Source of the DNA: a virus
Length of the DNA stretch: 64,000 bases
Reading direction: 5' to 3' (one strand)
Virus record (IMG/VR): IMGVR_UViG_3300036770_004917
Location: 1 to 64,000 of that record
Below the pieces are notes generated by a model. It worked only from the letters and a program-made list of their open reading frames with translations. It did not search any database and was not told the origin of the DNA. The first letter of the stretch is position 1. Each line of letters opens with the position of its first letter. Positions 4,496-53,934 of this stretch are shown here, one piece after another. A program made the position numbers and the translations under genes.

Positions 4496-5803
4496 TCAGG
4501 CGGGCTCGGCGTCGAAGTCCACCTTGACGAAGGCCTCAGGACGCTTGACGGCGAGAGCCAGACGCTGTTCGGCCAGAACGACGATTGCGTTACGGACGAA
4601 GAAGTCGGCGTGCTGCTCGCTGATGCGGATGCTGGCCTGCTCGCGGTCGTACAACTGAGCGCCGGTTCCGAATGCGCCGACGAGTGCGGTGCCTTCGGGG
4701 ATGGCGGGGGTCTCAACCACGGGGATGCGCCACAACTTGGGCTCGCCACCGAGGGCCACGGACACTGCAACGAGGTACTGACCGTTGCTGTCCTTGGCGA
4801 GTTCGATGTCTTCCCAGTCGTTGGGGTGCATTACGACGCCAGTTGGCTCGTAGTAGGCGAGGAAGGACAAGGTTGCGGCGCGACGAATCGCATCGGCCTT
4901 GGTGTCCGGTACTGGGGTGGTGGCGCCATCGGACCAGGCGTATTCCTGGATGCCGGTGGTGCTGAGTACGCCAGTGAGGTTCTCGCCAGTGCCATCGCCG
5001 CTCAGAATCTGAGCGTCTTCCTGGAGGCGCAGACCGTACATCAACTCGTTGTCGATGATGCTACGAAGTTGTGGCTCATCGGCGAGTACGTTGCGGTGGG
5101 CTGCTTCCCAGTGGGCGATGGTGCGGACGGGAGCCTGCTCGCCTACGAAGGTGAAGGATGACTGGGGCTTGGCACCGAAGGCAGTACCGGCGCCATTGCG
5201 CTCGGCAACGGCAGCGGCATTGTTGGTGAAGCCGGTCATGCGGAAGTATTCAATGACGGCCGCGGTCGTGGTGCGAACTGGGAACAGGTCGCGAACGCGC
5301 TTGGTGCGCATTGGGGGAACCACGATGGGGTCACGCTGAATGGTGCCGAATGAACCAGGGGTGCCGGTGGGTAGACCCGAGTACATGTCCTTCACGTTGT
5401 AGCCACCAGCGGTGAGTACGGTATTGGTGACGTAGGGGGCGCTCATGTTTGCGCCATTACGTCCACCCTGAAGGGACTTGAACTCCATTGAGTTGATGAA
5501 CTCGTCGCCGACTGACTTGAAACTGGCGCGGGGGAATGCTCCACCAGCGGCAGCGGCTGCTGCTACTGAATTGGCTCCACCGTTGTTCCAGGTGTCGACT
5601 TCGCGGAGACCTTCGAGGCCATCGATGAGGCTCTTGATTTCCTTGATGTCGCGCATGTTCTTGTCGAACGCACTCTTCTGTTCAGTGCTTACGACGACGG
5701 TGCCATTCTCAATCTTGAATGAGTCGGCGATTGACTTGTTGTCTGCCATCTTTTGACGAAGTGCGCTCTGCAGTTCGTTTAGGCGGGAAGTGTCTTCTGA
5801 CAT
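4496..5803 (-). CDS. Major capsid protein, HK97 fold
   Basis: 435 residues, the building block of the icosahedral head. Residues 1-95 are a charged helical delta (scaffold) domain ending in a Gly/Ala linker. Two possible maturation sites, ASFK-SVGD (96/97) and MEFK-SLQG (109/110), fall where HK97 gp5 is cut (K103/S104). The rest has family hallmarks: LMYGLRLQEDAQILSGDGTG, then TALVGAFGTGAQLYDR, SEQHADFFVRN and RLALAVKRPEAFV. A GGAG site precedes the start, and a strong terminator follows. Its base composition is visibly more GC-rich than that of the giant genes upstream, as expected for a very highly expressed gene. It is unusual in lying about 47 kb downstream of its protease. Confidence 0.97.
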   Translation of the reverse strand: MSEDTSRLNELQSALRQKMADNKSIADSFKIENGTVVVSTEQKSAFDKNMRDIKEIKSLIDGLEGLREVDTWNNGGANSVAAAAAAGGAFPRASFKSVGDEFINSMEFKSLQGGRNGANMSAPYVTNTVLTAGGYNVKDMYSGLPTGTPGSFGTIQRDPIVVPPMRTKRVRDLFPVRTTTAAVIEYFRMTGFTNNAAAVAERNGAGTAFGAKPQSSFTFVGEQAPVRTIAHWEAAHRNVLADEPQLRSIIDNELMYGLRLQEDAQILSGDGTGENLTGVLSTTGIQEYAWSDGATTPVPDTKADAIRRAATLSFLAYYEPTGVVMHPNDWEDIELAKDSNGQYLVAVSVALGGEPKLWRIPVVETPAIPEGTALVGAFGTGAQLYDREQASIRISEQHADFFVRNAIVVLAEQRLALAVKRPEAFVKVDFDAEPA

Positions 5804-6450: not shown

Positions 6451-9400
6451 TCACTCCCATGGTCCGAATGTCTCATCTGCCAAAATTTTAGTAACGGCAT
6501 CTTTGGCCGTATAGTAACGAGTGTTTTCATCCTCAATATTACCAATTTTGTAGTACAAATATCGTGGAATTTGATGTTCGTTGCCGTTGGAGAAGTCGTA
6601 GACAGTGACGTTTTCCATTTCCATTCTAATCAGTTCTTGCATTAACTGATTGTGGCGTTTAGTAAGTCCATTCCTCAGCGATGAGGATGTTAGTGTTTCT
6701 GCTTGACGAAGAACATCAGCGATTTCATTTCGCAATTGTTCGTACTTATCCCACCCGTCGATGGCAACCTCCGCCCATGCGTGTCCATACCTGATACCCA
6801 TTGCCTCACCACCAGTCCCCAGTGGGATGCCATGAACAATGCGGATTTGGTCGTCAGAGAAATTGAATTCTGGCCCCCTGAGTCGCTGCGCCATAGTGAC
6901 TGCCATTTCGTAACAATCACCATCCCCATCGATTGGGTTTGAGCCATATGCTGATTTAAACCTATTGTCAAAGTTCTTGGATGACCTGGTACTGGCATAA
7001 AGCAACTTTTCAAGAACCGCCGCACGGTTTGGATACATTTCGGCGAACGAATATTCACGCCGGTCGCCATTTGCATTTGTTACGGAAGCAATATAGCCAA
7101 ACATTCTGTCTCTCAAAAACAGAGAAGCGGACTCGGCAAAGTCCTCTTCATATCTCTCCGATTCTCTCGCATATTGAGTTATAAATCTCTGACCAATACG
7201 TGGACCATGAGAACCATCGATGGATGGTGCAATATCTCGATAACTTGTCCCTGGGACGGATGTGGGCTGTTTTGCCAATCCACTGTCAGTTATGACAGCA
7301 AGCGGCACATTGCTCTGTCCAAACAAAATGCCATGCGACTCGTCTCCCTCCATTGCTGGAACCCAGTCGTCCGTAAGTGAACTGAACGCGTACTTGTTGC
7401 TATATGAGATTTCCCTATCATCAATCGCCGTCCGGAAACCAAGTGAGAAATCAACTGAGTGACCAAACTCATGCAACATTATGTCAACGTAGGGTGATTG
7501 CTCTGACGTTTTCCACATAACAATTGAATTGGCGTCGGGGTATGCTGTTCCTGAAACACGAGTGGCATCTATCCCATCTATGTTTCCAGCAAATGCGTCC
7601 GACTTGAAGATTATGTTTGGTCTCGGTATGCGCGGATTGATGTCGGCAATTGTTGTGTGGAAATTTTCCAGCGCAAGAACTATTGGTGCAATTTTTCCAG
7701 AATCACCAGATGGTGGGCGTATGTCATCAAAGGTGAAGACACCGATACCATTTTCATTAACTCTTGGGCTTGCTGCCCCCATACGACTCTTGATGGAGTC
7801 AAGTTCTGCCGCATCATCGATTTCAATAAGCGTCAATGAACCATCGGCATTGCGCACAACTACGGCATTGCTAATACCGGACATTTTGGCACCAGCAGGT
7901 ATGTCACTTACGAATAGGGCCTCGCCTGTTCGTAGCGTAGAAACATCGGCTTGGTGGAATATCTTTTCAGTTCTTCGTGTGGCAAGAATATTGCGGCGAT
8001 TATCTGTGCGCACGATGTCTGGTGGATTTGGTTTAGAACTATCAAATGCGTCTACTGCGAACAAGTGACGAGCAGAGACGCCAAGTCCGTCGTCACTTGG
8101 AACCAATGAATCCAATGAGGCAACGGCAAGCAGGTCTTGCTTGTACTTATCTAATTTATTTCTTTCACCCTTGGGGAAATATCCATCCGGTATGTCTGCT
8201 TCGGTCAATCCATCCAGAAGCGCTTGTGGATTAGCGAGGAACGCGTCTTTGGCGGAGGCATCCATGTATGCCCTGGAGCCATCTTCAGAAATCCGGAGTT
8301 GTGGGGTTAGCGAAGTAATGGAGCGAGTACTACGTCGTGAAACGATGGAGCGAGTTATATCGCTTGCGGTAACTGGATTTTGGCGTCTTTGCATTCCCCC
8401 AGTTGACCGACCCGACCTAGTGGCGGAAATATTACTCATGAATTGTGCCCTACGAACATCTTGCTCAAGGTATGCAAGATTGAATACTCCATTTGGCGTA
8501 TTTGTAATACGACTACTACGAGTACTGCGTAGTGGATTTGCGGGTTGCGTATTTAGGCTATCTATGAAGTCTTGCACCGTTCCAGGCCACTCATATATGG
8601 CCTTTTTTATCCCTTTGTATGTAGAATCTTGATTCACAAGCATAATTTTTTTCAAATCTTCCCCAGCATCGGTGCGGAGTTGATGCATGAGTTGGTTTGC
8701 CCCATATGTATCTAGCCACCATCTCGCCACCCTGTCTCTTTCATCAGCATTTAGACCTATATCGGGGTGGTTGGTGATGACCGAAACCATTGCTAATGCA
8801 TTGGCCCATTCTCCATGTCTGTCAAATCCGCGACCAGTACCCAGGTGTCCAATTACGTCATGGATTCCGTCAGTTCCTTCTAAATTATTAATAGCCCTGC
8901 GCGGATTCTCCAAACTGTCAAGTAGGTATGGTGCAAAGTCGGCGAATTTTGTGTATTTGATTTTTTCTGGTCCAGCACCAACCTCGTCAAGTTTGTCCAA
9001 TACTATTTTATATAGCGACTCTCTAGCAACGCTAATTGCTTCACCTATACTTGGGTCCCAGTCGCGTTCAAATTCCTGAGCCTGCTCAATAATGTTTCTC
9101 ACGGCATCAGCCGATGGTGCTTCTACATATGTCCAATCACGTCTATCGGGGATTATTGAATTGAAAATTGGGTGTGGCTGAGATGTGATTACTGGAATAC
9201 CGTTAGAACTCACACGAATTGATAATGACTCTGCTATTTTTTTACCAGTTTCACCAATTGATATGTCTGGTTCAAGGTCATCAATCTTTTGCCTGATATA
9301 GAATCTATGATTTCTTTGCTCCGCGTAGTAGCGGTCGAGCACATCTCGGGGGACGGAACTTCCAGCGAGAATATTTTTTGCTATCTCTGCTTCGCGTTCA

Positions 9401-12400
9401 TCCAACTCCAGATTTTTAATTATTTCATCTTCGGTTTGCTCAGCAAGTAGGTAGGTGTCTGTTCTTGACCTGGTTGACTGAGTGTCCCTTCTCGCCCTGT
9501 CCTCGTCAACTAGGCGGTTGATTCTATCCAACGCATCTTCGTCGTCATTGCCAGATTGACGCTGTGAGTCAGATGAACGTCGACCACCACCACCAGACTG
9601 GTTTGAAGAAGTACGGCGCCTAGGGTCTGAAGGTGGACCGAAAGCCTTTTCCCATTCTGCCATTTTTTCATCAATGAAGTCTTGTTCTGGCGGGTTGGGG
9701 TCTATGTAAATTTTCGTACCAGGTGTTCCACGGAAACGCATAACCTGTGGACCGACAATAAGTGTTGATTGGATTTCGTCATATTCGTTGGCGAATACGA
9801 GTTTCACGCCTGACTCAATTTTTGCCTTTTCCCCATCGGCGAGATTCAGTGGCTGGAATCTCTGCTTTTCGTCTTCCGTCATTGGTCGGTTCTTGTAAGT
9901 CCTAAACAAAGAACTACGAGTTGAGCGCATTGAGGAAAGTTCCCCCTGCGACGAAATAACTGGGGTCTTGTCACGCTTGCCGGGCTGCAACCTTCCTGTT
10001 GCTGGCTTGCGATTCTTGTCGTCAAGAAAATCACCATGAAGGATGTTTTGCAATTGTGGAAGGCTCTGAGCAACCTCACGGTTTTCGCGTAATTCATCCA
10101 GCGCTTGCGAGTGTAGGGCATCTAGTTCTTCATATTTTCTTGCCGCAGAACTTGCTTCTCTCCATGCCTGAATCGCCGAGAGACTTTTCATGAAGTCTGG
10201 TTCTGCCTCACGTATCTTTTTGAATCTGTCAACGAATGAGCGCTTGTCATCCGCCCTGGCAGACTCAATGAGAAGCATTGAACGATTGGTCATGCCAGGA
10301 ACGCGGAACTTGTTTATTTCATTTGATGCAGAATCCCTCAGGGACTCAATGAAGTCGGCAAACTCCTGCCGTTCTGGTCGTTCTAGTCGCATGTCAAGCA
10401 GTTCGCGATACATTGACGACATATCCTGAATTAGTTGTGTCTTTTCAGAACTGGAGAGGCGTGACGGACTGGACAATCTGTCGCTCAACTCGCCAATATG
10501 TGTCGCAGCACCATACGAGGTGGTGCGCGACATGGACCTTGTTCCAGCAAGACCACGGTCACGAAGGTCTTTGGAAATCATTGATGTTGGTCCATCCCAG
10601 ACGGCGCCCCTTAGCGTGGCGTTGTCAAGCCTGAGTTTGCCTAATGGCAATGAACCAAGGTGCGCATTCGTTAGGTCTGCACCACGGAGGTCGATTGCGC
10701 TGGTACGTAGTGCTTCGGGGTCAAATTTTGCACCAGAGAAATCTGCTTGCCGGAGGTCTGTTCTCCTCATGTCCAGCACGCCGCGAATTTTTACTCCACG
10801 GAAACTCGCACGACGCAATGTGCTGCCACCAAATGACACATCCTGAAGGGTTGAACCAGTAAACCGTGCGCCGTCCATCCATGAATCTGTCATTTTTACA
10901 TCTGACAAAGATTGTTTTATTGCGGAAAAACGGTCCATGTATGATTTAGTGATTGTGGAGCGCCGAAGAGCCAACCACCCAGAGTCAGAGATTTTGGAAG
11001 CAGTAGCATCTAGTCCAGAAATTGGGCTCCCATCCGATGGCGCCTCGGGAATGTCAATTGCCCTTATGCCAAGTGCAATCTGGCGTGCCTTGGCATAGTT
11101 GCTGTCGGCCCTATTGATTGGGGTTGTGCTTTCAGCGTTTACCTTGAATGAATATTTTCCATTTTGGTTTACAACCTGACCCTCTGGAAGCGAAGCAATA
11201 AACTGCTGTATTTGCGGAGAAAATTTTGTTCTATCTGTCCATGAAATACCGGAACCAAGCATTTGTTCTGGCGTAAGTCCAGAATTGTTGAGGTCCGCTA
11301 GGTCAAAATCAACTCTCTCCAATATTGCATCACGCAAATTGATTCCACCCACTGTGGCTTTGGAGAAATCAACACCGCGCATCGATGTTTCGCCAAAGTC
11401 AACATCGACAACTTCACTGCCTTCAAACGCCACCCTCTCAAGGGAAGTGCGTCGCATGTCGCTTCCTCTTGGGATTTGGGTATTCCGAAACGAAACCCCC
11501 CTAAGTATGGAATTACGCAAAACAATAGGATTAGATGTTTTTAGATTATCTGCCGTAACAGAGAAAAAGTTTGCACTAATCCATTCTGAATCAGATAGGT
11601 CGACATCGCTCCCCAAAATCACATTCGATAGTTCTGAATGAGATGTGCGTTTGCCGATTATGTTTTTTCTCAAAATTGTTGCCTTTTTATTAGGCGGTGA
11701 CTCAATCACGAGCCTTTCCGGCAAATTTCTATTTTGAGAAGACCGAGTGGAATTTCCATAGTTAAATGATGAACTGCGAGTTGAGGCAAGAACAGAGCCA
11801 GACACCCTCTGGGCCATTTGCTCTTCCCAGTATTTCTCTACGGCACGAGAACCATCTTTCCCAAAAAACTCATCGAATACCTTACGATTTATGATGTCAA
11901 ATGTTCCATCTTCGCGCCTTACTGCAGCGAGGCTTGCGTTCCCTTCACCCTGTGAATTGTCCCAAAGGTAAAACTCGTCCATATAGCCATTGGTAATCGC
12001 TTTGCGGACTTTGTATTGAAGTTCGGCAGCATACTGTGAAGCGAGATTTGTGGGAAGTTTGACTCCGCCCTGTTGTCCGCGAGTAGCCATTCTCTCTTCG
12101 GCAATACTTGTTGGGACATGGACATAATGGCCGATAACCCTGTATCCGTTATCTCGCCCAATCAACATCTGGTCAACACGCGTGCCTGTTCCGGTGACTG
12201 TATAGTCACGACCTTGCGCTGCAGCCTGTCGCATCCCATACAGCGCCCATTGGGTTGACCAGCCATGTACGGCGCTCGCCCCACGACCACCATCCCAGTC
12301 GGGATGCATTGTCTTAATTATGTCGGGGTCAATGTCGACTGCTGTATCAGCACCCGGAACGCCTGACAAAATTCCGCTTGTGCGTAGTGTTGTTTTGCCA

Positions 12401-14742
12401 GAGCCTGTTGTTCCGCCAATAAACCACATTGTCGGCGTAGATGATGCATTTTCTCCAGTTGCGCGAGCGAATAATGAGTCCAGTGCGAGTTGGCCCAACT
12501 CTCCATTGCGCCGCGCCTCCTCTGCTCTGGCGAGAGCCTCCGTTACATCGGTGTTGTAACGTGACCTAGTAGAAATGCGCTGATTACTTACGAATTGGTC
12601 GACTACATCTGGCGGCAGCCTCAGCAACATCCTGTCCGGAGAGTCGGCAATGTACGTCGGGTTATTGAGTAGCCAGTCATGGGCCTCTTTTTCTGATTTG
12701 GACATTGGCCCGAGAAGCAGATTACTTACACTTCGCGTTGAAAATGAGCGTGCGCGTTCCGACAATTGGGACTGGTTTCGCTCACCAACGAATGTCATAA
12801 ATTCATTTACGCTCATGCCTAGGACATTTGCCATATTGGCGATGGCTGTATTATCAACACGCATTCGCCTGCCTGGGTCATCATCGGTAAATGCAGCAAA
12901 TGACTCAGCAAACCACTCTATTCGTGCAGTTTCCGCATATTCACTTATTCTACGAGCAGAGGCTCTCTCCTGTTCAGAACCCCAAGTTACGGACCGGTAG
13001 AGCGCTTCTGAGAATTTTGCCGATGCATCATTGCCACGACCCTGTTTCAGATTCTCTTGTAGTTCCGAATATAGGGAAATCAGGTAGTCGCGAGCAGGGC
13101 CACCCTGTTTGGCGGCCATAAATTGCCAAGCGTGTGCAAGTTCGTGTCGTATCAATGAGTCGAGGTCTTCGTCCCTAAACATTGAGTCACGAACACGACC
13201 GGTTACTGGGTCAGGAAATGCGCCGGAGTTAAATGCTATGAATCCCGTTGGTGCGTAACCCCCGATTACGCTCTGCCACATACGTGGACCTGCAGTGAGG
13301 TCAATAAATCCCATATTGTCAATATCTGGCTCATACCCAGTCACAACAATTGGAGGCATGCCATAGCGTCTAACCGCATTGCGGACACCTGGATTCCTGA
13401 ATAGTTCATCCTGGATAATTTTTCGTACCAGCAAAGTCGCTTCGTAGTCTGGCTCAGCGGCAGTGATTCGCTCGTAAATCCGTTTTGCATTTTTGCGTGT
13501 GTATGGACTGTTCTTGAGCGCTTGCATCAACTCTTCGTTAGAACCTGGAACTAGTTGGGCAACAAGGTCATTTAGTTCACCGGCGCCCAAGAATTCATAT
13601 TCATCATCCACTGCATCAAGGGCCTTCATTAGTGTTGATGCGTCCCTCTTGCCCATTCTTTCCGAGCCACGCGATATTTCTAGGTCAGCATCGCCAAATG
13701 CAATACGCCCGTCCTCCATGACGGTATTCTGCGTATAAGTTGGTTTCTTTTTACGCGGACTCAAAACATCGCGCAGTTTGGACAAGAGTGGGTCTTCTCG
13801 TTCGGTCGGAACGTCATTTGGGGTAACCCCTATTATCTGGGAAAGAACATTTTTGTCAATTGCGCCGTCAACAGATAGTCCACTTCGTCGATTCTGTTCG
13901 TTGGCGAGTGCCGTTGTTCCAATCAGATTCTGTACACGGCGTCCAGTCCCCTCAGGAATAATGAATCGTGGAATGATGGGGCGTTCAAGTGGGAGTCCTT
14001 CAAAAACGATTCCATCTTTGTCGGCATCTATTGCCCCAGTTACATCAATAAAAACAAATCCGCTCGGCGCAGCGCGAAGCCCACGGCCAATTCGTTTGCC
14101 AACCTTTGGTCCAAGTCCCTTTACCTGCATTGAGTCAGCGCCATGAAGGTCGTCATAAAGTGACTTTTTGCGAGACCTCATTGTTTTTGGTTGATTACGC
14201 TTGACTACGTCCGCGATAAATCGCTCTGTACGTTTTTGCATATTTCGGCGACCAAGGGCAGTGCGGCCTGTCCTATTTGCCAAATCTGTCATATTGGTGC
14301 AGGGCATCCAGATTGTTCTGCCAGAACGGGAAATTCTCCTACTGACGCCAATGCATCCAAGTTGACGCGACCTATCACGTGCGGCCTCGATGTCCGTAAA
14401 GACATCTGGGTCTTCATCGCGTGGTGCGGCCGGTTGATATTGCTTACCAACTACGCCAGAGACAAGTCCGCCACCAGCGAGGGTATCAATTGCGACGATT
14501 CCACGAGAACCGAGATTCTCCCATTGGCGCTGCATGTTGTTGTTGCCGCGCTGTTGACGGCGTGGTGCAGAAATAGGCCCCATGGCAGATGGGCTACTAG
14601 GGACAATTTTGGCCAAAGATTCTGCGCTTGAACATGGACGCCAAACTCCATCGCTCGTCTGATGAGCGCCAGAGCAGCCAAGTTTCTTTGCCTCACGTAG
14701 GGCCTTCATCTTTGCTGCGGTAGTTGACGTAACCGCGTTCAT
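6451..14742 (-). CDS. P4: giant STRS-punctuated polyprotein (2763 aa)
   Basis: An uninterrupted ORF with at least six domains and nine STRS linkers (668, 724, 987, 998, 1607, 1756, 2073, 2138, 2584). In order: two GCxGx...WxPC repeats (20-151); KGLG and the shared DADKDG...LERPIIPRF module (206-262); HELAH metallopeptidase (533-537, AES at 612); zeta-toxin-like kinase with P-loop GGTTGSGKTT (776-785) and DIDPD; pentapeptide-like repeats (1035-1150, 1278-1385); unknown domain with HDVIGH and FDRHGEW (1961-1979); HEFGH metallopeptidase (2424-2428, AES at 2536); C-terminal papain- or transglutaminase-like domain with Cys2610, His2654 and Asp2716. No signal peptide or membrane segment. It lies between the prohead protease and the capsid gene. 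Likely a packaged multi-effector precursor (inference). Confidence 0.9.
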   Translation of the reverse strand: MNAVTSTTAAKMKALREAKKLGCSGAHQTSDGVWRPCSSAESLAKIVPSSPSAMGPISAPRRQQRGNNNMQRQWENLGSRGIVAIDTLAGGGLVSGVVGKQYQPAAPRDEDPDVFTDIEAARDRSRQLGCIGVSRRISRSGRTIWMPCTNMTDLANRTGRTALGRRNMQKRTERFIADVVKRNQPKTMRSRKKSLYDDLHGADSMQVKGLGPKVGKRIGRGLRAAPSGFVFIDVTGAIDADKDGIVFEGLPLERPIIPRFIIPEGTGRRVQNLIGTTALANEQNRRSGLSVDGAIDKNVLSQIIGVTPNDVPTEREDPLLSKLRDVLSPRKKKPTYTQNTVMEDGRIAFGDADLEISRGSERMGKRDASTLMKALDAVDDEYEFLGAGELNDLVAQLVPGSNEELMQALKNSPYTRKNAKRIYERITAAEPDYEATLLVRKIIQDELFRNPGVRNAVRRYGMPPIVVTGYEPDIDNMGFIDLTAGPRMWQSVIGGYAPTGFIAFNSGAFPDPVTGRVRDSMFRDEDLDSLIRHELAHAWQFMAAKQGGPARDYLISLYSELQENLKQGRGNDASAKFSEALYRSVTWGSEQERASARRISEYAETARIEWFAESFAAFTDDDPGRRMRVDNTAIANMANVLGMSVNEFMTFVGERNQSQLSERARSFSTRSVSNLLLGPMSKSEKEAHDWLLNNPTYIADSPDRMLLRLPPDVVDQFVSNQRISTRSRYNTDVTEALARAEEARRNGELGQLALDSLFARATGENASSTPTMWFIGGTTGSGKTTLRTSGILSGVPGADTAVDIDPDIIKTMHPDWDGGRGASAVHGWSTQWALYGMRQAAAQGRDYTVTGTGTRVDQMLIGRDNGYRVIGHYVHVPTSIAEERMATRGQQGGVKLPTNLASQYAAELQYKVRKAITNGYMDEFYLWDNSQGEGNASLAAVRREDGTFDIINRKVFDEFFGKDGSRAVEKYWEEQMAQRVSGSVLASTRSSSFNYGNSTRSSQNRNLPERLVIESPPNKKATILRKNIIGKRTSHSELSNVILGSDVDLSDSEWISANFFSVTADNLKTSNPIVLRNSILRGVSFRNTQIPRGSDMRRTSLERVAFEGSEVVDVDFGETSMRGVDFSKATVGGINLRDAILERVDFDLADLNNSGLTPEQMLGSGISWTDRTKFSPQIQQFIASLPEGQVVNQNGKYSFKVNAESTTPINRADSNYAKARQIALGIRAIDIPEAPSDGSPISGLDATASKISDSGWLALRRSTITKSYMDRFSAIKQSLSDVKMTDSWMDGARFTGSTLQDVSFGGSTLRRASFRGVKIRGVLDMRRTDLRQADFSGAKFDPEALRTSAIDLRGADLTNAHLGSLPLGKLRLDNATLRGAVWDGPTSMISKDLRDRGLAGTRSMSRTTSYGAATHIGELSDRLSSPSRLSSSEKTQLIQDMSSMYRELLDMRLERPERQEFADFIESLRDSASNEINKFRVPGMTNRSMLLIESARADDKRSFVDRFKKIREAEPDFMKSLSAIQAWREASSAARKYEELDALHSQALDELRENREVAQSLPQLQNILHGDFLDDKNRKPATGRLQPGKRDKTPVISSQGELSSMRSTRSSLFRTYKNRPMTEDEKQRFQPLNLADGEKAKIESGVKLVFANEYDEIQSTLIVGPQVMRFRGTPGTKIYIDPNPPEQDFIDEKMAEWEKAFGPPSDPRRRTSSNQSGGGGRRSSDSQRQSGNDDEDALDRINRLVDEDRARRDTQSTRSRTDTYLLAEQTEDEIIKNLELDEREAEIAKNILAGSSVPRDVLDRYYAEQRNHRFYIRQKIDDLEPDISIGETGKKIAESLSIRVSSNGIPVITSQPHPIFNSIIPDRRDWTYVEAPSADAVRNIIEQAQEFERDWDPSIGEAISVARESLYKIVLDKLDEVGAGPEKIKYTKFADFAPYLLDSLENPRRAINNLEGTDGIHDVIGHLGTGRGFDRHGEWANALAMVSVITNHPDIGLNADERDRVARWWLDTYGANQLMHQLRTDAGEDLKKIMLVNQDSTYKGIKKAIYEWPGTVQDFIDSLNTQPANPLRSTRSSRITNTPNGVFNLAYLEQDVRRAQFMSNISATRSGRSTGGMQRRQNPVTASDITRSIVSRRSTRSITSLTPQLRISEDGSRAYMDASAKDAFLANPQALLDGLTEADIPDGYFPKGERNKLDKYKQDLLAVASLDSLVPSDDGLGVSARHLFAVDAFDSSKPNPPDIVRTDNRRNILATRRTEKIFHQADVSTLRTGEALFVSDIPAGAKMSGISNAVVVRNADGSLTLIEIDDAAELDSIKSRMGAASPRVNENGIGVFTFDDIRPPSGDSGKIAPIVLALENFHTTIADINPRIPRPNIIFKSDAFAGNIDGIDATRVSGTAYPDANSIVMWKTSEQSPYVDIMLHEFGHSVDFSLGFRTAIDDREISYSNKYAFSSLTDDWVPAMEGDESHGILFGQSNVPLAVITDSGLAKQPTSVPGTSYRDIAPSIDGSHGPRIGQRFITQYARESERYEEDFAESASLFLRDRMFGYIASVTNANGDRREYSFAEMYPNRAAVLEKLLYASTRSSKNFDNRFKSAYGSNPIDGDGDCYEMAVTMAQRLRGPEFNFSDDQIRIVHGIPLGTGGEAMGIRYGHAWAEVAIDGWDKYEQLRNEIADVLRQAETLTSSSLRNGLTKRHNQLMQELIRMEMENVTVYDFSNGNEHQIPRYLYYKIGNIEDENTRYYTAKDAVTKILADETFGPWE

Positions 14743-15095: not shown

Positions 15096-18000
15096 TCAGT
15101 CTACTCTCTCTCCGTTATTGAGTTTTTTAACGAGTGCTGGGTCTAGTCTGCCACCTGTTTTTATCGCTTCCTCTACAGCGTCTGTCATCCCTAGGCCACC
15201 AACACCACCGTATGTTATCAATTTCCCACGGTTCATAACCAGCATGACTCCACTATCCATTCTTAATGCATCATAACCAAGGAATGGAGCGAGGTAGTTC
15301 TGTAAGAGTCCATTTGTACCCTCAACGAAGTAGCGCAGTGCATCGAGTGCATTGGCTCGTTCGTCTGGGTTTGATGCATTCCGAACAGCGCTAACAAGTT
15401 GTGAAATAACCTGTCCACCCTTTGTTTGCCAACGTGCATCGCCTTCCGGTATGGATGCGTAAAGCCGTTCTTCCAGTAGTTCAGCAAGTTGTTCAGCGGC
15501 TGCTCCAGTTTTTCTGTTACGCCACTCTCTCGGCAACGACGGGTCCTTGAGCGCAGTAGAAATACCACCACTAACGGCATTCATTTCTCTCTTAATTTGT
15601 TCCAACTCAGACTTACGTATGATTTTTGCATCCGCAGGAAGAATTGCCATAAGGCCACCAGGTCCTGGCTGTGTTCCTTTTTTGCCCCTTTGGTTGTCCT
15701 CGGTGACATATCCTCGCCAACCACCATCGGGTGACGTATTCCCACCCTCAATCCGGACAGCCCAGTATTCTCCAGGACCCTGCATTGTCCCACCGTCTCC
15801 AGTGGTGTGTCTTTGGACGTCGTCCATGTACCGTTCGGCGAATGTATGTCCACCGAAACCACGTCTAATTACTATGTTGCCTGAGTCTTTTGCTAGTTCA
15901 AGAAACTCTTCTTCGGTAACGACCGTTGGACGCTCCTGCATGCCATTGAGGTCCCAGATGCTTCCGAGGACTCTGTCGGCTTTCAGGTTGCTGGCCTTGA
16001 GTTCTTTCTCTAGTTTTTGCCTCTTCTTCTCATCTTTTTTGTCTTCCTTGGACAGTTCCCCGGACCTTGGTGCACGAGTTAGAAGTTCCAAGTCAGCAAA
16101 TTTAGACAAACTATCCTTCGATAGCGTTGGGCTGCCATCGTCGGCAAGGACAAATGCTGGAGTTGGCTGAGTTTTCCTGGTATGTGCCTTAAGGATTTCT
16201 GCAGAATCTCTCTTTTTGCCAGCAAGCAACTTAAGTCTATCCGCCTTAATGCGCTTGAGTATTCTGAGTTCCTTGGCAGTTTTGTCGGCTTCTTCCGCAC
16301 GTCCTCCGTAGGAAACCTGGCCCTTCTTCAGTCTCTCCAGGCGTTCCCTACCTTCTTTTCTCTTCCTGAGGCGCTCATTGTGACGCTTTACCCAACCTTC
16401 TGCATCTGGTCTTATGAACTTGGCAAGTGAGAGTTTGCGCCAGAATGAATCGCCACGAATCGCCGATGCGTCATCGTCAGCAATACCAAGTGCACTCTGT
16501 CCCCAAAGTTGAGATGAGTGGTCAAAATCAAGATTCACATCATCACCAACAATGGGACCATCACCAACAATGGAGTCAGCATTGGGTCGCGGATTACCAT
16601 TTGAGTCATAGATAACTCTATCGTCACCCATTCGCCAGCCGAATGCACTTGAATCCGGCAAGTCATACTTTGATGAACCGGATTTTTGGTCGTGATACCA
16701 CTCAAATACTTCAGGGAGTTCACCAGCATCAAACTTTGCCTTCAACTCCTTGTATTCCTTGGAGTTGTAGCGAATTGCCTTATTGTTTTTCCCCTTTTGG
16801 GTAGTTGCCCACTTGCGGAAAACCTGATTTTTTGCGGCTGCGGCACCAGTAAGTGAACTTGGGCTACCGAGTAATTCTTTACGCATTGAAGATGGTAATT
16901 GCTCAGCAACAAATGCAAGACTGTCGCCGCCCTCTTCGTTCCTCCCATTATTTGAGTTAATTCTCGCACCGGCAAGAACTAGAAGTGCCGACGTCTGGTC
17001 ATCAAGCATTTTGATTTTGTCATTTATGTCCTTGAGTTGCGTTTTCTTCAATCCAGGACTCAACTTGTCATTTGCTTCTATTGCGTCGCGCTTCTTGAGT
17101 AGGAGTTCACGAACTTTTCCATGTGTTGCCGAAAGTCGTGCCAGTCCCTTATCGCTGAGTGCAAGGCGCCACTCGCCAGTAACTGGGTCGCGCTGCGTCG
17201 TAAGGAGTTGATATCTCGCGAGGGAAGCAAACTTCTGTGCCTGCCGTTTATTTTTGGCAGTAACAGTTTTTTCCGCTGTCTCGCCCCATAGGTTGAAATC
17301 GGCTATGTCGCCGAATAGGCCAACGAATTCATTGGTTCTTCCGGCGCCCTCAATCGGCGTCAGTTTGGCACCTCTTGTGGTATCAAGCATCGCAATTTGC
17401 TGAATTTCTCCATTTTCATCAATTGATGCAAAGAGGTTGCCAGCGCCACTAACCGCCTTAATGAGACTCTCCTCCATCTCAATTGCTCGCGACTCAGTGA
17501 GTCTGCGTTGCTCTGGAGTAAGGGATTCCCACAATTGGCCGTCTTGTTCGTCAATTCTTCTATGCCCTGGAGATTTCAGTCCGTCAATTGCGGTATCGCG
17601 CCCGCTGCGGAGAGATGAACCCATGTCGATGTTGGCAATTCTCTGGCGCTCTGAAACACTTCTAGTAGATGGTCCTGCACTCCCGATGCGACGACCCGCA
17701 TTTCTGGCACGACGACGTGCTGCAACTTCACGACCCGCAACACGAATTGATGCATTTGGATTGTTCATCAACTCATCGCTAATTAGTCTTCGACGCTTAA
17801 TCTCAGCGTTGGCGCGCTGTAGGCGTTTTCTTAGTCGCTCAAGTTGTTCTGGAGATGGCGAGAGAACAGAAGAACTGCGTGTTGATGCAAGCATTCTCAT
17901 GTCTGCCTCATCGAGGTCATCTGGACCGGTCATGTAGAAATCAATTGCTTCTTGTGCGTCTTCTACACTTGGGAAGGACCTGTCGAGCCCACCGGCAACT

Positions 18001-21000
18001 TGTTCTGAACCTGAATCAAGTTCAAAAATGTTTTTCCACGTACCATCGGCAGTGCGTTCCTGACCATCGACTGAGTAGGAGCCATCTTCGTTGCGGAGGA
18101 TTTCAAATCTGGCATTGCCGTCATTGCTTCTTCCACGACTCACAACCTCGCCATTGGCCGTGTCGCTATATCGTGGGGTGGTGTTGTCTGACCCGGGGCG
18201 ATTAAAATTAACCAACTTGCTGCTGCGTGTTGACTTTTGCAGACTTGCGCCATATCCAGTACCTGGCTCAAATCCACCAGCAAACATCTGTGCATCCGCA
18301 TCAAACGCTGGAGAATATCTGTAATCATTTCTTGTCGGCATGCGTCGCAAAGAAACACCCTGCTCATTGGCGAAGTTGGTATCATTGGCATTCATTGCAA
18401 ACTGGTTGTATCCACGCTCAAATGCGGCGCTTGATTCATATGAGCGTTTTTCTGAACGAGTACTAAGTAGTAGATTGTTTGCATCTTCTTCTGAGATTTC
18501 TGGCAAATCTTCCTTATCGGCATCCCGTATCTGGCGATAATCCCAATCACGAACATCGTCAAGGAATTGGGGACTGCTGGCATAGTCCTGGAAAGAAGGC
18601 TCACCAGCATCCACGTCTATGCCTTGTTCGTCGGCATATCCGGGAACATTGTTTACGGAATTCAACCAGTTATTGTAATATTCGCTAGATTCTTCAGAGA
18701 ATAGGAATCCATCAATAACGCTACCCTCTGGATACTCGCGTCGTCCAAGGTAAGGAACTCTGTCCTCGTTTTGAGCAACTCCTCTACGGCTGCGCAAACT
18801 GCGAGTAGAAGCACGGTCCGCCGCAGCAGAACGCAGGCTTAGGTTGCCACGCCCATCGTCGTCGCCATTCATGCCATTCCAGGCATTGATTCGCATTACT
18901 TGGATGGCATCCCAGTCACGAACATCGTCGAGGAACTGGGGACTACTTTCGTAGGATGCACGAGATGGCGAGACACCCTTTTCTACGCCCTGCTCTTTTG
19001 CGTATGCCGAATTGAGTCTAGTTAGTCGTGCCCATCTGCTGAAGTTGTCTTCAAAGTCGCCCGACTCTTTGTATGCATCAATGACTGCTGGTTCTGGCTT
19101 TCGGTTGCGTCCCAAGCGAGGAATTCTGTCTTCTTTTTCAAGATTCAAATAACTTGAGCGATTGTTTCTGCGTAGCAACCCTGTTGCCTTACTGCGCTGG
19201 ACAATATCTTTGAATTTTGCAATAAATCGTGGCTGACCGGGAGATGGAATGTCAAACATATGTCCACGTTCAGCCATTTGCTGAGTAACAAAATATCCAT
19301 CACTGTCCGCGACGCTCTGCAATAGTTGTTTCAAATTCCCCAGAGGTTTCCTGTATCGTTCTGGCAGTTGCCCAGCCTCCATTTCGCCATTGAAGACACT
19401 TACCGTCCGGAGTGCCGCATCAAATTCATCGCGAGACATAATTATTGAATCAACGCCACCGATGGCATTTTCCACAGTGTCATACAGTGCTGCGATGCTG
19501 TTCGCATCATCGGAATCGGCAAGAGCCTCAACTTCATCAAGATTAATAAGAATGTCGGCTATTGAGTGAAGGTCGTCGCTGAGGTCCCCAAGTTGCGATA
19601 GCGTCATGCTTACTTCAACGTTCGTGTCATCTTCACCATCGCTACGTGCTGAACGGATTGATGCCAATGATGGGCGCTTTCCTGGGAAATTGAACGAGCC
19701 ATCGTTGGTGAATTCGGAAGCCGGTATCTGGAATGGCACTTCACGTCTAATTGATGCTTGATACTCCATATCGTACTTGTCGAGAATTTGCTTAATTGCG
19801 CCAAACATATTCCTATCGCGCAGCGCAGCAACTACGTGCTGATATTCCAATGAATTCGATGGGCCCTCACTTCTGGAGAGTTCGCTCCACCTATTGGCCA
19901 AGATATTGAAATACTCTTCAAGTAATTGCCTGTCAGACATGCGTTCAAAATCCGCATAGTGAAAACCATCTGCCGGTCGTGCCAGTCGGAGGTCTCCATC
20001 GCGTTGAGCCAATGAAGCGGAGCGTGAACTCTTGATTCCATTGTTTCTGTCAGCCATCGTTCTTCTCGTGGAGAGGAGTTGACGGCCCGGTTCTGCGGAT
20101 GTCAAATACTCAAGAACGTCGTCGTATTCCATGTCCTCTGGGCCGTCTACGTACTCCCGAATGGCTGCCTCGGCATCATCGATGGTTGAATAGGTTCCAT
20201 CGATATTGTTCATGGATAGTCGTGAATCGTTTACTTCCACCCCGGAGAAACCAACCAGATTCCATTTGCCATCTGAGTCGCGCTCTCTTCCGACAATCAC
20301 ATAGTCGCCATTTGGGGTGAGAACGATTTCTGCATCAAAACCGCCCGATGAATCGCTGCCACGCATCACAACCCTACCGTCGACGGCATCCGAGAAGCGG
20401 GGGGTGGTGGAGTTTTTGCGCGAAACCGGACTCATGACCACTGACCTGGTTGACGGTCCGTGCAAATCTTTATCGAATGTGTCGCGAGGCTGACTGAATC
20501 TGAAAATTGATGGAATTAGTGTCCTTGATTCACTGCGACTTACTTTTTCGCCACCCGGCGAAACATCGCTTCCCGAAACATTCACCCGAGCACTGGGCTC
20601 ATATCCTTCGAATCTGTCCGCAATATCTTTTGCCATCTTCTGACGAGCGCTAATGGTATCCACAAACAATTTGCGCATCTGTGGGGGGACTCCAGCATCG
20701 CCCATTTCTTGGTCAATCTTCTGCAGATTCAAATGCTCAACACGTCGCATGGCGACGACTAGGTCATTGTTTGATACGCGGCCGTATAGGTTTGAGATAT
20801 GCTGACCACGAATCGGTGCGCCAGGCATGTAAATCATAGTGGCGACGTCATCCCATGGAGCATCTGGGCTAAATTCTGGCTTCTTGCTTCCACCCTGTGC
20901 CCTATATGGTCCAGCCCCACCGGTATCTACTGTATAAATAACACCAATTGGGTCAACCATCTTGTTATTGCCACCACTCCAAGCATCTCTGACCTGAAGA

Positions 21001-24000
21001 AGCATGTCAATACCCATGTCCTGCTTTGCTTGGGCACGCACTCTGCCTGATGGGCTTGATGTATTTTGGAGATTGTCAACCTTTTCGCTGACCACCCAAG
21101 TGTCTCCGGCCTTGTCTTTGATTATTGCCTTGTGGGGAACCCCTGCACCGGCAACTCTATATACTGCAGCACCAGCAACTTCTGCTTCTGCATGACCATC
21201 AGAACGTCCGCGCTTAGCAAAGAAAATTCGTCCAGTGCTATCGTCCTCGAACCAATATCCCTCATTGAGTCCAGTTGGCCCTGGGATGCGGCGCATTGTA
21301 TTTAGGTCATCCCATGTTGGCAGCGACACACCGCTTACAACCGGCCCACTATATGGCGAGGCGCTGCGGGTTGAGGCGACACCAAAAATTTCCTTGAGGT
21401 CACGAGGTGTGACAATGTCATTGCCAATGCGTATGTAGTTACCAGCGCCCATATTTCGTGCATTTAGGAGATTGCGAATCTCTCCAGAATCAGTGACACT
21501 TGGAAGAATTGTGTCTACCCAGTTGTCCCAATTGTCTGAGCCGAGCGAAGGGGTAGCAACTGAGCGGGCAGACCGCGTTGACTCAGTTTGTGGTTTTGCC
21601 TGCTTTGCAAAATCTTGCACGCGCTTGCGCAATTCATCCTTAATCGCTTTTCCGCGTGGGGTGTTATACCCTTGCAGGTGGTCGAGGACGTGGGCGGTGA
21701 TTGATGCAGCACTCAACTTGCCCCAGGAATCATTCATGGATGTCAATCCCGCAAATGTGCCATAGGATTGGTGCGGACCACCGTTGTTTTGGTCACCCTT
21801 AAGCGGTATCGCTAAGACGTCGGCCCTAATCATTCTTGCAAGTTCATACAATGGCGCTTTAGAAATTTCACGCAATTCTTCTGGGGATAGTGGCTCGCTG
21901 CCGGTTCTGGCGGCCCGTCTTCCACGCTTAATGCTGCGGTCGAACAGAAGTGCGCTAACTGCCCTATTGACCTGGTTGTCGCTGGGCGATGTCTTTCCTT
22001 GCCGGGCAAGCCAAATTCTTGCAACCTGTTCCAAATCAATGACATCGTCGGCCTCCATTTTCAGGAGGTTTGCCAATGTGGGCAATCCGTCTGCATCAAG
22101 AGAGTTAATATCATCATTTGGCACAATGCCGGAACGGAGACTGCGCGGGAATGACTGTCCCAAAAGGTCACGTGGATTGAAGGGCTTAATTCCTTGTCGT
22201 TTATTTCTCTCGGCAATAGCACCTTCAAATCGCGTATCTGGGTTTCCGCCGATTCCCGCCCTGCTGCCTTCGTTGATAATGTCATCAAGTTCTTTGTCTG
22301 ACATCTCTTCGAAGTTGATACCTAGTAGTCGCTTGACATCCATTGGGAGGTCATCTGCACGGCTGGCCCCTTGGCCTGTTGCGCCCGGACCTGTGAATGA
22401 ACGAGCCGAACGAGTCGATGGCACCCTCTGGGCATCTTCGAGGTTTGCCCCATCAAAATACGATTCGCCAGTATCGTCAGGGAATTTGGCATCAGTCAAA
22501 TTTGCATCAGTAAAGTCGCTATCGGAAATTCGTGATTCCGTGAAATCAACATTCTCCAGATTTGCTCTAATAAATTGTGTCCCCGTAAAAGATGAACGGC
22601 CAAAGCCTGCCCCTGCCAGGTTGGCATTTGTGAGGTCTGCTTCGTTAAAACTTGCACCACTCACACCTTGGCCCGAGGTCTCTGATAGATTTGCTCCCGT
22701 CAGATTTGCCCTATTGAACCAAGTATTTGAGATATTGGCTCGGTTGAGATTTGCTCCACTCAGATTGGCCTCAGTGAAAGTTGCACCATTAATATTCGTG
22801 CCTGACAAATCAGCATCCGTCAAGTTTGCCTTATTGAAATTTGCAAAATCAAATGTTGCTTCTCTTAGGTCCGCCCCACGAAGGTTGGCCCCAGTAAATG
22901 ATGCATCGTAGAGATTTGCTCCAGTGAAGTCAACAGATACGAGTTCCGAATCTGACATGTCGGCACTATCAAGGTTGGCGTTTTTGAAATTTAGACCAGT
23001 CAATCGCATTCCGGACATATCTGCGCCACTGAGGTCTCGGTCACCTTGAAGTTCTTCGAGAATCTGCTCTTCCGTTGGTGCTGCGCCCTTCCATTTTGTT
23101 GATTCCAGGCGAGAAGAACGCAGGCTGACTGATTCGCGCCTACGTTGGTCGCGGCTTCTTAGTGTCTTGTCTGGGGCATGCTTACCACCACGCTCGTATT
23201 TGAAACCCTGCTTTTTGATGTCGTTAAGAATGCGCCCAAGGAAGTCGGGGTTCGACTCCAACTCCCGAACCCAGTTGTCGTCTACATCTTTATAGGTATA
23301 GGTTCGGCCGCCATTAAAGGTAACAATTAGTTCCTTGGCATCATCGTCCCATGAGATTTTTTCAACAGCACGCGAACCCTCGGTGTTGATTTGAGTTTTT
23401 CCACCCTTGCCAACCCTGCTTGCACCAGCGCGACGTGCGTTCATTATCGCCCCTCTGGCACGGGCTGGGTCGAGTGGGTTGCGGCTTGCAGTAGCGCCAC
23501 TCGGTACGAATCTTGAAAGCCTTGATGAATCGTCCCCAAGAAGCACCTGAATCTGCTCACTCACGGCAGAAACGTCACTATCGGTCAGTCGACCTGCACG
23601 ACGCAATTTTTCATTTTCTTCGGAACTTCCCTCAAGGAGTGAAGAAATTTTTCTGCCAAGATTTTCGGGAACCGTAAAACGTGGGATGATGGGACGCTCT
23701 AGGGGCGTGCTCTCGAATACGATTCCATCTTTGTCGGCGTCAATTCGGCCAGTTACGTCAATGAACACCAAACCGGCTGGGGCGGCACGAAGTCCACCAC
23801 CAAGGCGGCTTCCGAGACGCTGGCCCAATTTTTTGACCTCAATAAGACCACCAGTAATATCTCTATTTTTGATGAGAGACTTATGGGCGACATCGTTCAT
23901 GCCAACAACCCGCTGTGCTCCCCTGGAGATTGTGGCATCAACCTTCGCTTGCATGTGTCGCGAGGAAATACCGTCAATACGCGAACGTACTAAGCCTGTT

Positions 24001-30400: not shown

Positions 30401-30736
30401 TTTGACTTCTTCCTCACCCAAACTCGTGATTATCTTTGCGCCAACGAGCAAATCATCACCTATCGGCTGTGTTTTTTTGAGAAATATTCTGTTCCACTTG
30501 TCTCGTTCTTCTGGGGATGAGCCAGGAGACCATAGAAACTTATGAAATTTAGAAAACTTAAGTTCTTGTATTGTCGGCGTTGTAGTAATGAAATGGAAAA
30601 ACTTAACAAAATCAATTTGTCCATCCGGGGAAACGACGGCGCCATCAAGCATCTGCTCACCATATGGCCGCAGAAGGTAATAGACCTTATTCCCTTCGTA
30701 TGCCCCAACGAGAATGGCTTTTGTTTTTACAGCCAT
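27482..30736 (-). CDS. Large protein with HESAH metallopeptidase-like motif (1084 aa)
   Basis: ATG at 30736 with AAGGAG six bases upstream; it overlaps the end of P2 by ten bases. Residues 153-157 are GFKAL and 168-190 are a variant of the P1/P3/P4 module (DGDGDGFVDDG, then MRPFIPGF). Residues 549-553 are HESAH, followed by a long helical region. GEFVAESAVADF at 1024-1035 could supply the third zinc ligand, as in the other metallopeptidases of this block, although the 470-residue gap is long. It is visibly more AT-rich than the giants and lacks STRS linkers, so it may belong to the same packaged set but be used as a single protein. Function beyond a likely zinc site is unknown. Confidence 0.7.
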   Translation of the reverse strand: MAVKTKAILVGAYEGNKVYYLLRPYGEQMLDGAVVSPDGQIDFVKFFHFITTTPTIQELKFSKFHKFLWSPGSSPEERDKWNRIFLKKTQPIGDDLLVGAKIITSLGEEEVKRKDYRIRADEFRRKIASTGSLPMEKTVLSRKSVFNMRGIVGFKALGPLLSGKPSVDGDGDGFVDDGLPTMRPFIPGFDFLPDSSTNTSLRSITTRRADKAADRSATREEMLSAIDDVAGIVSRRHNDGKKIKTRKDAMDILKRLIPSFGLSPNDKARSSIEFLDSKADSDSLKPWELAYINQFLLMFGDDASRNEVTWRLRSMDPRIAAQGAGGYTSVPLGAKDWEFSQKFSDEGPRLLPKKNRKPLMTIGYSAETDKQNSRIYLLGLLMKQDKRNFTALSYAISKALRDDLNEMPDKSKIMNALQYKYGLDIEPGIASMSEIINQLLQGNNLIGAESQVPSSALGQDLLQTIWNVVNNSADAIAQVDSSFDKDLLVSRTLRAIQQGSIADILKSLRKTREAYQNSLNSPGLKMHLANGEELLDKWLTVNSKLVGVHESAHGLHFLRILESNRKKAQKLRDEYLQRYIDRQKEAGLTPETFKELQKQLPIEAFYTDVFKDEIREYAQNSPELLRRDILMLTTGGTAGRLIPDFQKLNGTSESLVGLTSTITSAIEIIKMQPPGVGRYDAARAMGAIGPFSVAGFMAKNPDSIGKSNFDDLVKQAKAEMVEQFIQQMESWLGQPIFMGDKPVALNGYMADLLNKMQASIPEVSGILGLDSILEFKAGDSITPAIASLLINPAIQKREQSARRNIMRGIRMFESDGSDSLTLGKVSPAIVLSTLGFPDIKGDDGNVMGGGRPEDVKPLIDALIGVSSLVRETEKQLQMGVQNIEQAMSSRSEPDAVDLPSSFGDISLSEFMEMPIDDVLEKLFTGIDDSLSAVANAINSGTMSSRLWENFEIMPKTGRTELSPLNQSEIKIINDIARKIGLPAGVQSSAGGTGLSSLPAQGYSSYQATLTDPTTWLGSTKWSIGEFVAESAVADFMGIPFSQIADSGLITRELTNEELQVLNKLMQWVFSGRLPSDRMSEAFNP

Positions 30737-40833: not shown

Positions 40834-40856
40834 TCCGGGCTCCAATCCCGACTGTA

Positions 40857-52551: not shown

Positions 52552-53934
52552 TTATTTTTTTGAACCACCAGCCTGGCCATAGAGAACATCGTCAATTGTG
52601 AGGGCGATATTCTCTAGTGCGGTGATTGCTTCCTGTGTAAGGCCGTTGGAGATATGAATTCCCTGGTGGTCAACCTCAGCGTCGAGACGGTGATAATCAA
52701 TTACTGGGTCAAGCAAACTCTTTACATGGAATGCTTCTTCCGGCGTGCATAGGACGGTAAAAACCTCTTCTTCTACTGGGTCCTGTTTTGAGCCGGTTAA
52801 ACCCTGAAGTAGGTCAATTGCGTATTGCAGTTTCTCTGCGGGCAGTGCCGAACCGCTTGTTGCCACATCAATGATAATGTCTGCCGCTTCATCCATTGCC
52901 TCATCTAGAGACTTGCCGCCAGAAGACAGAAACATCATTCCTGTCGGCATGCCAGAACCTGGCTTGACACTCATTGGCATTGATGGCATTTGTGATGGAA
53001 CGACAACTGGTGCTGTTGGCATTGTGCTCTGCTGATTACGCATGCCAATTTTTTCTGGCTTACCAAACATATATTCGCCTGTCTCTTCCTCGCGATGGTA
53101 AGACAGGCGATAGGTGACTGAGTTGCCATTTCCGGCATCACGATTGAAAGTAACTGAATTCTCCGTTGCGTGAATGATGTCCAGGGGCAATCGCGACCTG
53201 CTCATTAGTTCCATGGCAAGTGCATTGCGTGCCTCATCGGGGAGTACTCGCGCTTCACCTTCACCAAAGATGTCCTCGCGCTCCTGTTGGCGCTGTGGCG
53301 CTATTGCGGATACCTGACGCACGACTTGGGGTAGAACTGGCCGACCTACAATTGCGGCCCCACTAGGGATTCCGGGCATATGATGCATGCGAGGCATTGG
53401 ATTCCCGCACTTTTCTGCTTCGTCGCTCTTGACGGAGATGGTGCCAGTAAGTTGGTTAGCGCCATGAAGAACTGGACTAACCTCATACAATTCAACTTCA
53501 TGAAGAATATTGGCCTGTGTACCGGGGTCAAACGTAGCATTGAGCGTCTTGTACCCAATACTCCACTCTTGCTCCTGGCCAAAGAATGCAACACTAGCAA
53601 AGGCTTCGCGACCCTTTTCGGTGGCCAGGTTGAATTGAACCTTCGCAAAAAGTCCACCCACGCCAGCCTGCTTCATCTTCATTGGTAAACGAGGGTCGCT
53701 TGCAGGAACCTCGTAAATTTCAAGAACCTTGCCGATGGGGTCATTCCAACTATGCCCCCAGACCACCCGAGGCTTGCGGCGCTTGAGGCTTTCAGTAAAG
53801 GCGCCAGTAGCGACAACATCGCCGACCGAGTCCTTGTTGCCAACTGCGGCCACAAAGCACTCAACAATGCCTTGTGCCTCGTCAATGTTTATCTGGCCAT
53901 TCAGTGCCTTGAAACTAATTTGGTCTGTAGACAT
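52552..53934 (-). CDS. Prohead maturation protease, S78-like, with long C-terminal extension
   Basis: 460 residues; AGGAG four bases before the ATG. Residues 10-165 are the serine protease of HK97-type heads: catalytic His61 in WGHSW, Ser125 in QEWSIGY, and an acidic residue in HEVELYEVSPVLHGA (146-160). It cuts the delta domain from the capsid protein during maturation. Families of this type are usually about 200 residues. Here about 290 extra residues follow, with a Met/Pro-rich stretch (about 305-345) and a helical end, which may act as scaffold. Residues 7-11 read SFKAL, the same signature found in most of the block's large proteins, so it may be a self-cleavage site. Its gene stands directly between portal and P1. 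Confidence 0.9.
   Translation of the reverse strand: MSTDQISFKALNGQINIDEAQGIVECFVAAVGNKDSVGDVVATGAFTESLKRRKPRVVWGHSWNDPIGKVLEIYEVPASDPRLPMKMKQAGVGGLFAKVQFNLATEKGREAFASVAFFGQEQEWSIGYKTLNATFDPGTQANILHEVELYEVSPVLHGANQLTGTISVKSDEAEKCGNPMPRMHHMPGIPSGAAIVGRPVLPQVVRQVSAIAPQRQQEREDIFGEGEARVLPDEARNALAMELMSRSRLPLDIIHATENSVTFNRDAGNGNSVTYRLSYHREEETGEYMFGKPEKIGMRNQQSTMPTAPVVVPSQMPSMPMSVKPGSGMPTGMMFLSSGGKSLDEAMDEAADIIIDVATSGSALPAEKLQYAIDLLQGLTGSKQDPVEEEVFTVLCTPEEAFHVKSLLDPVIDYHRLDAEVDHQGIHISNGLTQEAITALENIALTIDDVLYGQAGGSKK

Follow-up and report, generated by a model that had tools for sequence, protein, structure and literature searches.

Four giant proteins encoded among the head genes of this phage carry a repeated four-residue word, STRS, at most borders between their modules, and related phages carry words of their own at the equivalent borders. 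A preliminary description of this DNA had proposed that STRS positions coincide with domain borders, which is now supported by homology blocks, predicted structure and the borders found in relatives; the use by related phages of their own word at equivalent borders is, on sequence comparison, what we add to it. Polyvalent proteins are predicted to bring in many activities together, and a clear border code makes it testable how a chain of some 3000 residues gives working enzymes. A reasonably probable reading is that the four proteins, P1 to P4, are packaged head polyproteins of effector modules, and that STRS is a lineage-specific site, most likely cut by a protease.

Giant proteins of the head gene region and their STRS words

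The window, that is, the whole 64,000-nucleotide stretch analysed, comprises bases 1–64000 of an 86,043-base IMG/VR virus record. P1–P4 lie between the genes for the head maturation protease and the major capsid protein, with the portal gene adjacent, and so stand among the head morphogenesis genes. Towards the right end of the record, genes for a contractile tail can be recognised by inspection, among them a sheath-like ORF and a tape measure ORF of 1470 aa. The main genes are as follows.

4496..5803, minus strand: major capsid protein; K[SA][LI]G conserved around residue 105, a putative prohead-protease site
6451..14742, minus strand: P4, ORF for a 2763-aa polyvalent protein, nine STRS
15096..24467, minus strand: P3, 3123-aa polyvalent protein, nine STRS; pentapeptide and KTSC domains
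30727..40845, minus strand: P2, 3372-aa polyvalent protein, five STRS; two ParB-like units
42581..52549, minus strand: P1, 3322-aa polyvalent protein, 12 STRS; in ten relatives the head maturation protease is fused in front of its counterpart
52552..53934, minus strand: head maturation protease (phrog_80, E 5e-29), its stop codon directly before P1
54043–56094, minus strand: portal
56383–57687, plus strand: terminase, by sequence reading

As in phage-type polyvalent proteins, several unrelated catalytic or effector domains are joined in one chain, with family matches to Zeta toxin, pentapeptide and Nudix and further conserved modules across P1–P4. The portal's nearest isolates are Gordonia and Brevibacterium phages (41–43% identity), and the major capsid protein is 50% identical to its counterpart in Brevibacterium phage Cantare. 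Cantare, Gordonia phage GMA6 and Streptomyces phage Gilgamesh (gp48, 4624 aa) are among the closest isolates, with portals 35–43% identical to the window's and a similar head-gene region; the capsid proteins of GMA6 and Cantare are 48–50% identical to the window's. A search with the whole of P4 found no close relatives in viral contigs, and isolates gave only pentapeptide matches; relatives were retrieved through the capsid protein, which yielded 316 related loci, the best 80 of the 316 being 72–84% identical.

Together P1–P4 contain 35 STRS where composition predicts 0.40 (Poisson P about 1e-54). These copies have 30 distinct DNA spellings, and selection therefore acts at the level of the protein, not of the DNA. 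Among single-substitution neighbours of the word, position 2 is tolerant (SLRS occurs six times against 0.57 expected, and SSRS four times against 0.63), position 1 shows little tolerance, and positions 3 and 4 (R and S) show almost none, which is the pattern of a recognition site with an R-S core. The words might instead be uncut flexible spacers, made uniform by descent and by linker copying during module duplication or exchange. Such spacers would suit the disorder-like composition flanking the words and the low-confidence loops in which sites lie (see below), but the diverse codon spellings indicate that the words are not recent copies, and the intolerance of positions 3–4 also counts against spacers, which we regard as quite unlikely. 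The sites are listed here by residue, with the words found at equivalent places in related phages (G and L numbers).

12730..12741, minus: P4 668; pLDDT below 50; GMAS in G003
12562..12573, minus: P4 724; pLDDT below 50; GMRS in G003
11773..11784, minus: P4 987; pLDDT below 50; GMSS in G003, GLAS in G021; several relatives have a stop codon within about 14 aa
11740..11751, minus: P4 998; pLDDT below 50
9913..9924, minus: P4 1607; SMRS just before
9466..9477, minus: P4 1756; pLDDT below 50
8515..8526, minus: P4 2073; pLDDT below 50
8320..8331, minus: P4 2138; pLDDT below 50
6982..6993, minus: P4 2584; predicted helix end; GMSS in G003
52103..52114, minus: P1 146; SMRS in L206/L214, SSRS in L212
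50879..50890, minus: P1 554
49523..49561, minus: P1 997 and 1006; SGMRS in L008/L012/L013 homologues
48599..48610, minus: P1 1314
47714..47734, minus: P1 1606 and 1609
46703..46714, minus: P1 1946
46163..46174, minus: P1 2126; GMSS 4 aa away in G003
45398..45409, minus: P1 2381; GMSS 6 aa away in G003
43007..43027, minus: P1 3175 and 3178; GMRS/GMAS, GMRS, GGMRS or GLAS in relatives
35911..35922, minus: P2 1642; exception, within a block conserved in six relatives
34717..34728, minus: P2 2040
33157..33168, minus: P2 2560; between two ParB-like units; GMAS 10 aa away in G003
31603..31614, minus: P2 3078
31099..31110, minus: P2 3246
22407..22418, minus: P3 684; SGMSS in G003
21570..21581, minus: P3 963
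21363..21374, minus: P3 1032
20442..20453, minus: P3 1339
18798..18809, minus: P3 1887
18453..18464, minus: P3 2002
18222..18233, minus: P3 2079
17874..17885, minus: P3 2195
17658..17669, minus: P3 2267

Word positions and module borders

Homology was assessed in 18 phages, one of them being the window, by comparing every head-region ORF of 600 aa or more. Only nine of the window's 31 STRS clusters fall inside homologous blocks, against 17.0 expected (P 0.001, below all 1000 shifted controls), and the 14 phages with words of their own have 80 of 261 sites inside such blocks, against 130 expected. Individual modules follow the same rule: P1 633–987 is flanked by STRS 554 and 997 here and, in G001, by GMxS 926 and 1333 of another gene, the Nudix domain lies between words 1314 and 1606 here and 96 and 457 in G003, and the P2 repeat unit between words 2040 and 2560 here and 2507 and 3035 in G003. 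The STRS at P2 1642 lies inside the block common to six relatives, none of which has a word there; either this site was gained recently or it departs from the rule, and it counts against a cleavage code at module borders. As a separate observation, L206 and L214 lack the P1 554–997 module and have instead a GAWxYPDG-type module following HDxxGH, with junctions at SMRS/STRS words; we read this change as a natural module replacement.

That modules move between genes and are bounded by words in both phages would also be expected if the repeat were DNA-level punctuation, a hot spot for module exchange by recombination. At the DNA level the words are not conserved, however (besides the STRS spellings given above, GM.S has 39 DNA spellings in 42 copies), and this codon diversity largely refutes a DNA-level repeat, to which we assign a barely appreciable chance.

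Stop codons in relatives mark some of the same borders. The kinase ORF ends at the equivalent of P4 973–992 in seven distinct relatives, where the window has STRS 987, and in another eight a short ORF ends at the equivalent of P4 192–204, just ahead of the VKGLG within the shared N-terminal unit described below. ParB-like homologues end about 70–80 aa before STRS and so give no close test of that border. Stop codons in place of words argue for separation of the modules and against an explanation by docking or threading. By that explanation, the words would be signals to a portal, scaffold or unfoldase for loading or ejecting the chain module by module, and a single phage-encoded reader would account for their uniformity without proteolysis; their location between folded modules, at a median spacing of 292 aa in the window and 213 aa over 14 phages, is compatible with it. 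We know of no precedent for such words and, as relatives with shorter ORFs have stop codons at equivalent places, we think it improbable.

The preliminary description had set structure prediction as the check on its claim, and this was run on most of P4 with AlphaFold2 models of residues 310–1200 (24 sequences, mean pLDDT 70.8) and 1740–2763 (32 sequences, mean pLDDT 63.9). Seven of the eight STRS covered (668, 724, 987, 998, 1756, 2073 and 2138) lie in loops with pLDDT below 50 (circular-shift P 0.004), while the eighth, 2584, straddles the end of a helix and the start of a loop, with two residues in each, at pLDDT about 74. Several other low-confidence loops of P4 carry no STRS, so the word is not merely loop-like sequence, a further point against uncut spacers. 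The modules that can be set against the words are listed below.

12067..12453, minus strand: zeta-like kinase core, P4 764–892 (Pfam PF06414 Zeta_toxin, E 3.5e-9; Foldseek 1gvn, E 3e-9)
8548..9285, minus strand: HDxxGH block, P4 1820–2065
6454..6984, minus strand: Cys-His-Asp block, P4 2587–2763, by motif only
49580..50791, minus strand: P1 587–990 module, ART/Arr-like by motif only; located in the P4-type ORF of G001 and G003
47891..48217, minus strand: Nudix domain, P1 1445–1553 (Pfam PF00293)

The partition proposed in the preliminary description largely holds, and its STRS coordinates are all correct except P2 2556, which is 2560. The zeta-like kinase had been placed between P4 724 and 987, and both its Pfam core and a model whose fold matches zeta toxins (1gvn) bear this out; likewise, the HDxxGH blocks fall within the segments given for them (1756–2073 in P4 and, at 249–482, 146–554 in P1), as does the Nudix domain. 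The two ParB-like units of P2 (2086–2497 and 2605–3043) are indeed split by a linker, the one at the corrected coordinate. For the 'Arr-like' part of P1 554–997 the borders stand, the module spanning 587–990 and relatives ending in SGMRS at the equivalent place, and for the Cys-His-Asp domain said to run from P4 2584 to the end the block begins at 2587, but both names come from motifs. The 'second metallopeptidase' is placed between the linkers at P4 2138 and 2584; its name is again a motif reading and its border claim is the weakest, the least tested of all because no relatives of this domain were found and the model is poor (low confidence around 2338–2537). No catalytic motif, as read from the sequence, contains a STRS. 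Family-model support was obtained only for the zeta-like kinase, Nudix, pentapeptide and, at the borderline, KTSC; a match to DUF6782, a putative metallopeptidase, at P4 2395–2442 (E 0.003) was below its cut-off. Profiles of the HDxxGH, Cys-His-Asp and P1 587–990 modules had no meaningful sequence relatives in the PDB, and the P4 C-terminal model no Foldseek match. The HDxxGH module, with its invariant HDxxGH...DRHxEWxN, is widespread in phages, with no solved relative found by sequence, and is a good target for structure determination.

Lineage-specific words in related phages

When words were counted de novo in the giant ORFs of the fully read loci, each phage had one dominant word.

GMRSR: G001, G002
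GM[SR]S: G003
GLSSG: G007–G009
R[LF]SSG: G020
RLSSG: G015
GGMRS: G017
GLAS: G021
ISGRM: G004, G005
[IV][ST]GxM: G014
STRS, the same word as in the window: L201

Further words, GFAS and GSKSxT, occur at other loci. The words are concentrated almost only in giant ORFs and are absent from the portal and capsid proteins. Two phages with shorter ORFs between the protease and capsid genes (G018, G019) have no strong word, and no comparable repeated word was found in the large ORFs of the isolates GMA6, Cantare, ChisanaKitsune and Gilgamesh.

At orthologous linkers the words are exchanged. The partner's word lies within 12 aa of a window STRS in 15 of 23 covered cases (65%), against 4.7% after shifting (P 0.001), and over all phages a partner word lies within 12 aa in 63 of 193 cases, against 2.7% after shuffling. 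One-for-one exchanges are seen in P4 at 668 (STRS/GMAS), 724 (STRS/GMRS), 987 (STRS/GMSS/GLAS) and 2584 (STRS/GMSS), in P1 at 3175 (STRS/GMRS/GGMRS/GLAS) and in P3 at 684 (STRS/GMSS). Intermediates occur at equivalent places, SMRS together with STRS in L206 and L214 and SSRS in L205 and L212, and make the words a drifting series. In L201 (contig IMGVR_UViG_3300008120_000987), whose P1 is 76% identical, all four covered STRS are unchanged, with an indel in the linker beside one of them. The word classes agree broadly with the protease tree, in which most forks have weak support, so that the words have changed independently fewer times than there are phages. Even so, the whole word set changes between phages at orthologous linkers, and drift of uncut spacers would not act in concert. 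Words that change at fixed positions would be a natural record of a recognition code evolving in concert, and the border words look like a private cutting or recognition signal.

A putative cleavage code and its candidate enzyme

The words are uniform within a phage, sit between modules, are conserved at the protein level, change as a set and occur in ORFs fused to a protease; taken together, these features make a cleavage code the best explanation. In ten relatives the head maturation protease, present in 17 of the 22 records searched, is fused in frame as the N-terminal portion of word-bearing ORFs of 1645–4736 aa. In the window and G003 the two are separate adjacent ORFs, and the window's protease ends ...GGSKK before its stop codon; G001 reads through ...GGGGSKKGDGAPNTKAAPKTRIKALSGKIG into the unit that opens P1. 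That unit, K[AGS]LGxxxG...D[AG]DxDG...ERPxIPxF with a calcium-loop-like DxDxDG, heads most polyproteins of the clade, and is located at P1 12–66, P3 215–270, P4 205–265, in Q3 (27482–30736) and in relatives. It is perhaps a capsid-targeting propeptide with its border at K[AGS]LG, and together with the position of the genes it suggests that P1–P4 are packaged.

The mechanism we favour would run as follows. P1–P4 would be strings of separately folding effector or enzyme modules, made alongside the head genes and carried into the prohead by the N-terminal K[AGS]LG...DxDxDG unit; they would be cut at the words into individual modules, to be ejected with the DNA. One trans-acting reader, most likely a protease, would keep STRS uniform within one phage, and the head maturation protease, immediately upstream here where it is not fused, is the first candidate. 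A more far-reaching version, which is possible and which we advance tentatively, has self-cleaving polyproteins throughout this tailed-phage clade, the often-fused head protease cutting dozens of modules, the code diversifying in step with the protease, and modules being traded as word-bounded cassettes. Being countable, such a border code predicts the mature termini of about 30 modules in one phage, as well as that matched protease–word pairs work and mismatched pairs do not; the word also splits giant proteins into modules automatically, which helps to annotate many phage effectors.

The choice of enzyme is less straightforward. Phages with different words have protease catalytic domains that share 76–89% identity with the window's, and the putative capsid cleavage site, K[SA][LI]G, stays nearly constant whereas the words change, so that a single enzyme would need to cut a conserved site as well as a variable one. 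By eye, the K[SA][LI]G of the capsid protein did not covary with the word; in the GLAS-type phage and its relatives the capsid K residue appears shifted upstream, not lost. K[AGS][LI]G, which the capsid protein shares with the N-terminal region of most polyproteins, looks more like a classical prohead-protease site than the words do. A near-invariant head protease beside changing words fits a different, faster-evolving reader, which is a serious rival: the words might be cut, during assembly or after ejection, by an embedded metallopeptidase or papain-like module or by a host protease. P4 and P2 do have HExxH-type motifs and P4 ends in the Cys-His-Asp block, and embedded peptidases have been proposed by Iyer et al. 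(2017; PMC5512222) to release polyvalent-protein domains. Against this stand the presence of the head protease in most records and its repeated fusion to the polyprotein, and we consider another enzyme unlikely.

The parallels with known systems are partial. The passages of PMC5512222 cited here describe polyvalent proteins of phages and conjugative elements as giant and multidomain, combining effector, peptidase, ParB-like and other domains, the phage type being predicted to be packaged and injected, and suggest release by peptidases, likened to RNA-virus polyproteins. A term search of that paper returned no repeated linker word or lineage-specific punctuation, both of which the window's clade has, and these passages describe no in-frame N-terminal head protease of word-bearing polyproteins. 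In the giant phage SPN3US many internal head proteins carry a short motif at which the prohead protease cuts them; these substrates are packaged and many are thought to be ejected, but the cuts mainly remove N-terminal propeptides (13 of 14 sites) (PMC10052503), whereas in the window's clade the marks stand between consecutive folded modules of one chain, with dozens in each phage, and close relatives have different motifs.

DarA and DdrB of phage P1 and the N4 virion RNA polymerase are likewise large packaged proteins, the first two processed, and the partial accounts drawn on here describe no repeated word in them. Eukaryotic RNA-virus polyproteins contain their own protease, and repeated cleavage sites lie between their modules; the likeness is an analogy only, as the window belongs to an unrelated dsDNA tailed phage in which cutting is putative. 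Compared with self-processed polyproteins, the window's clade has a repeated specific site at module borders. Searches of the open-access literature turned up no description of such repeated words in the linkers of phage polyproteins. Substrates of prohead proteases of the HK97/T4 type share one motif between capsid and internal proteins, whereas in the window STRS is absent from the capsid protein and the shared element is K[AGS][LI]G.

Outside the window, the tape measure protein (1470 aa, from record base 79525 on; L001/L002) also has two STRS, at residues 44 and 625 of its open frame, which counts against the favoured reading of the word.
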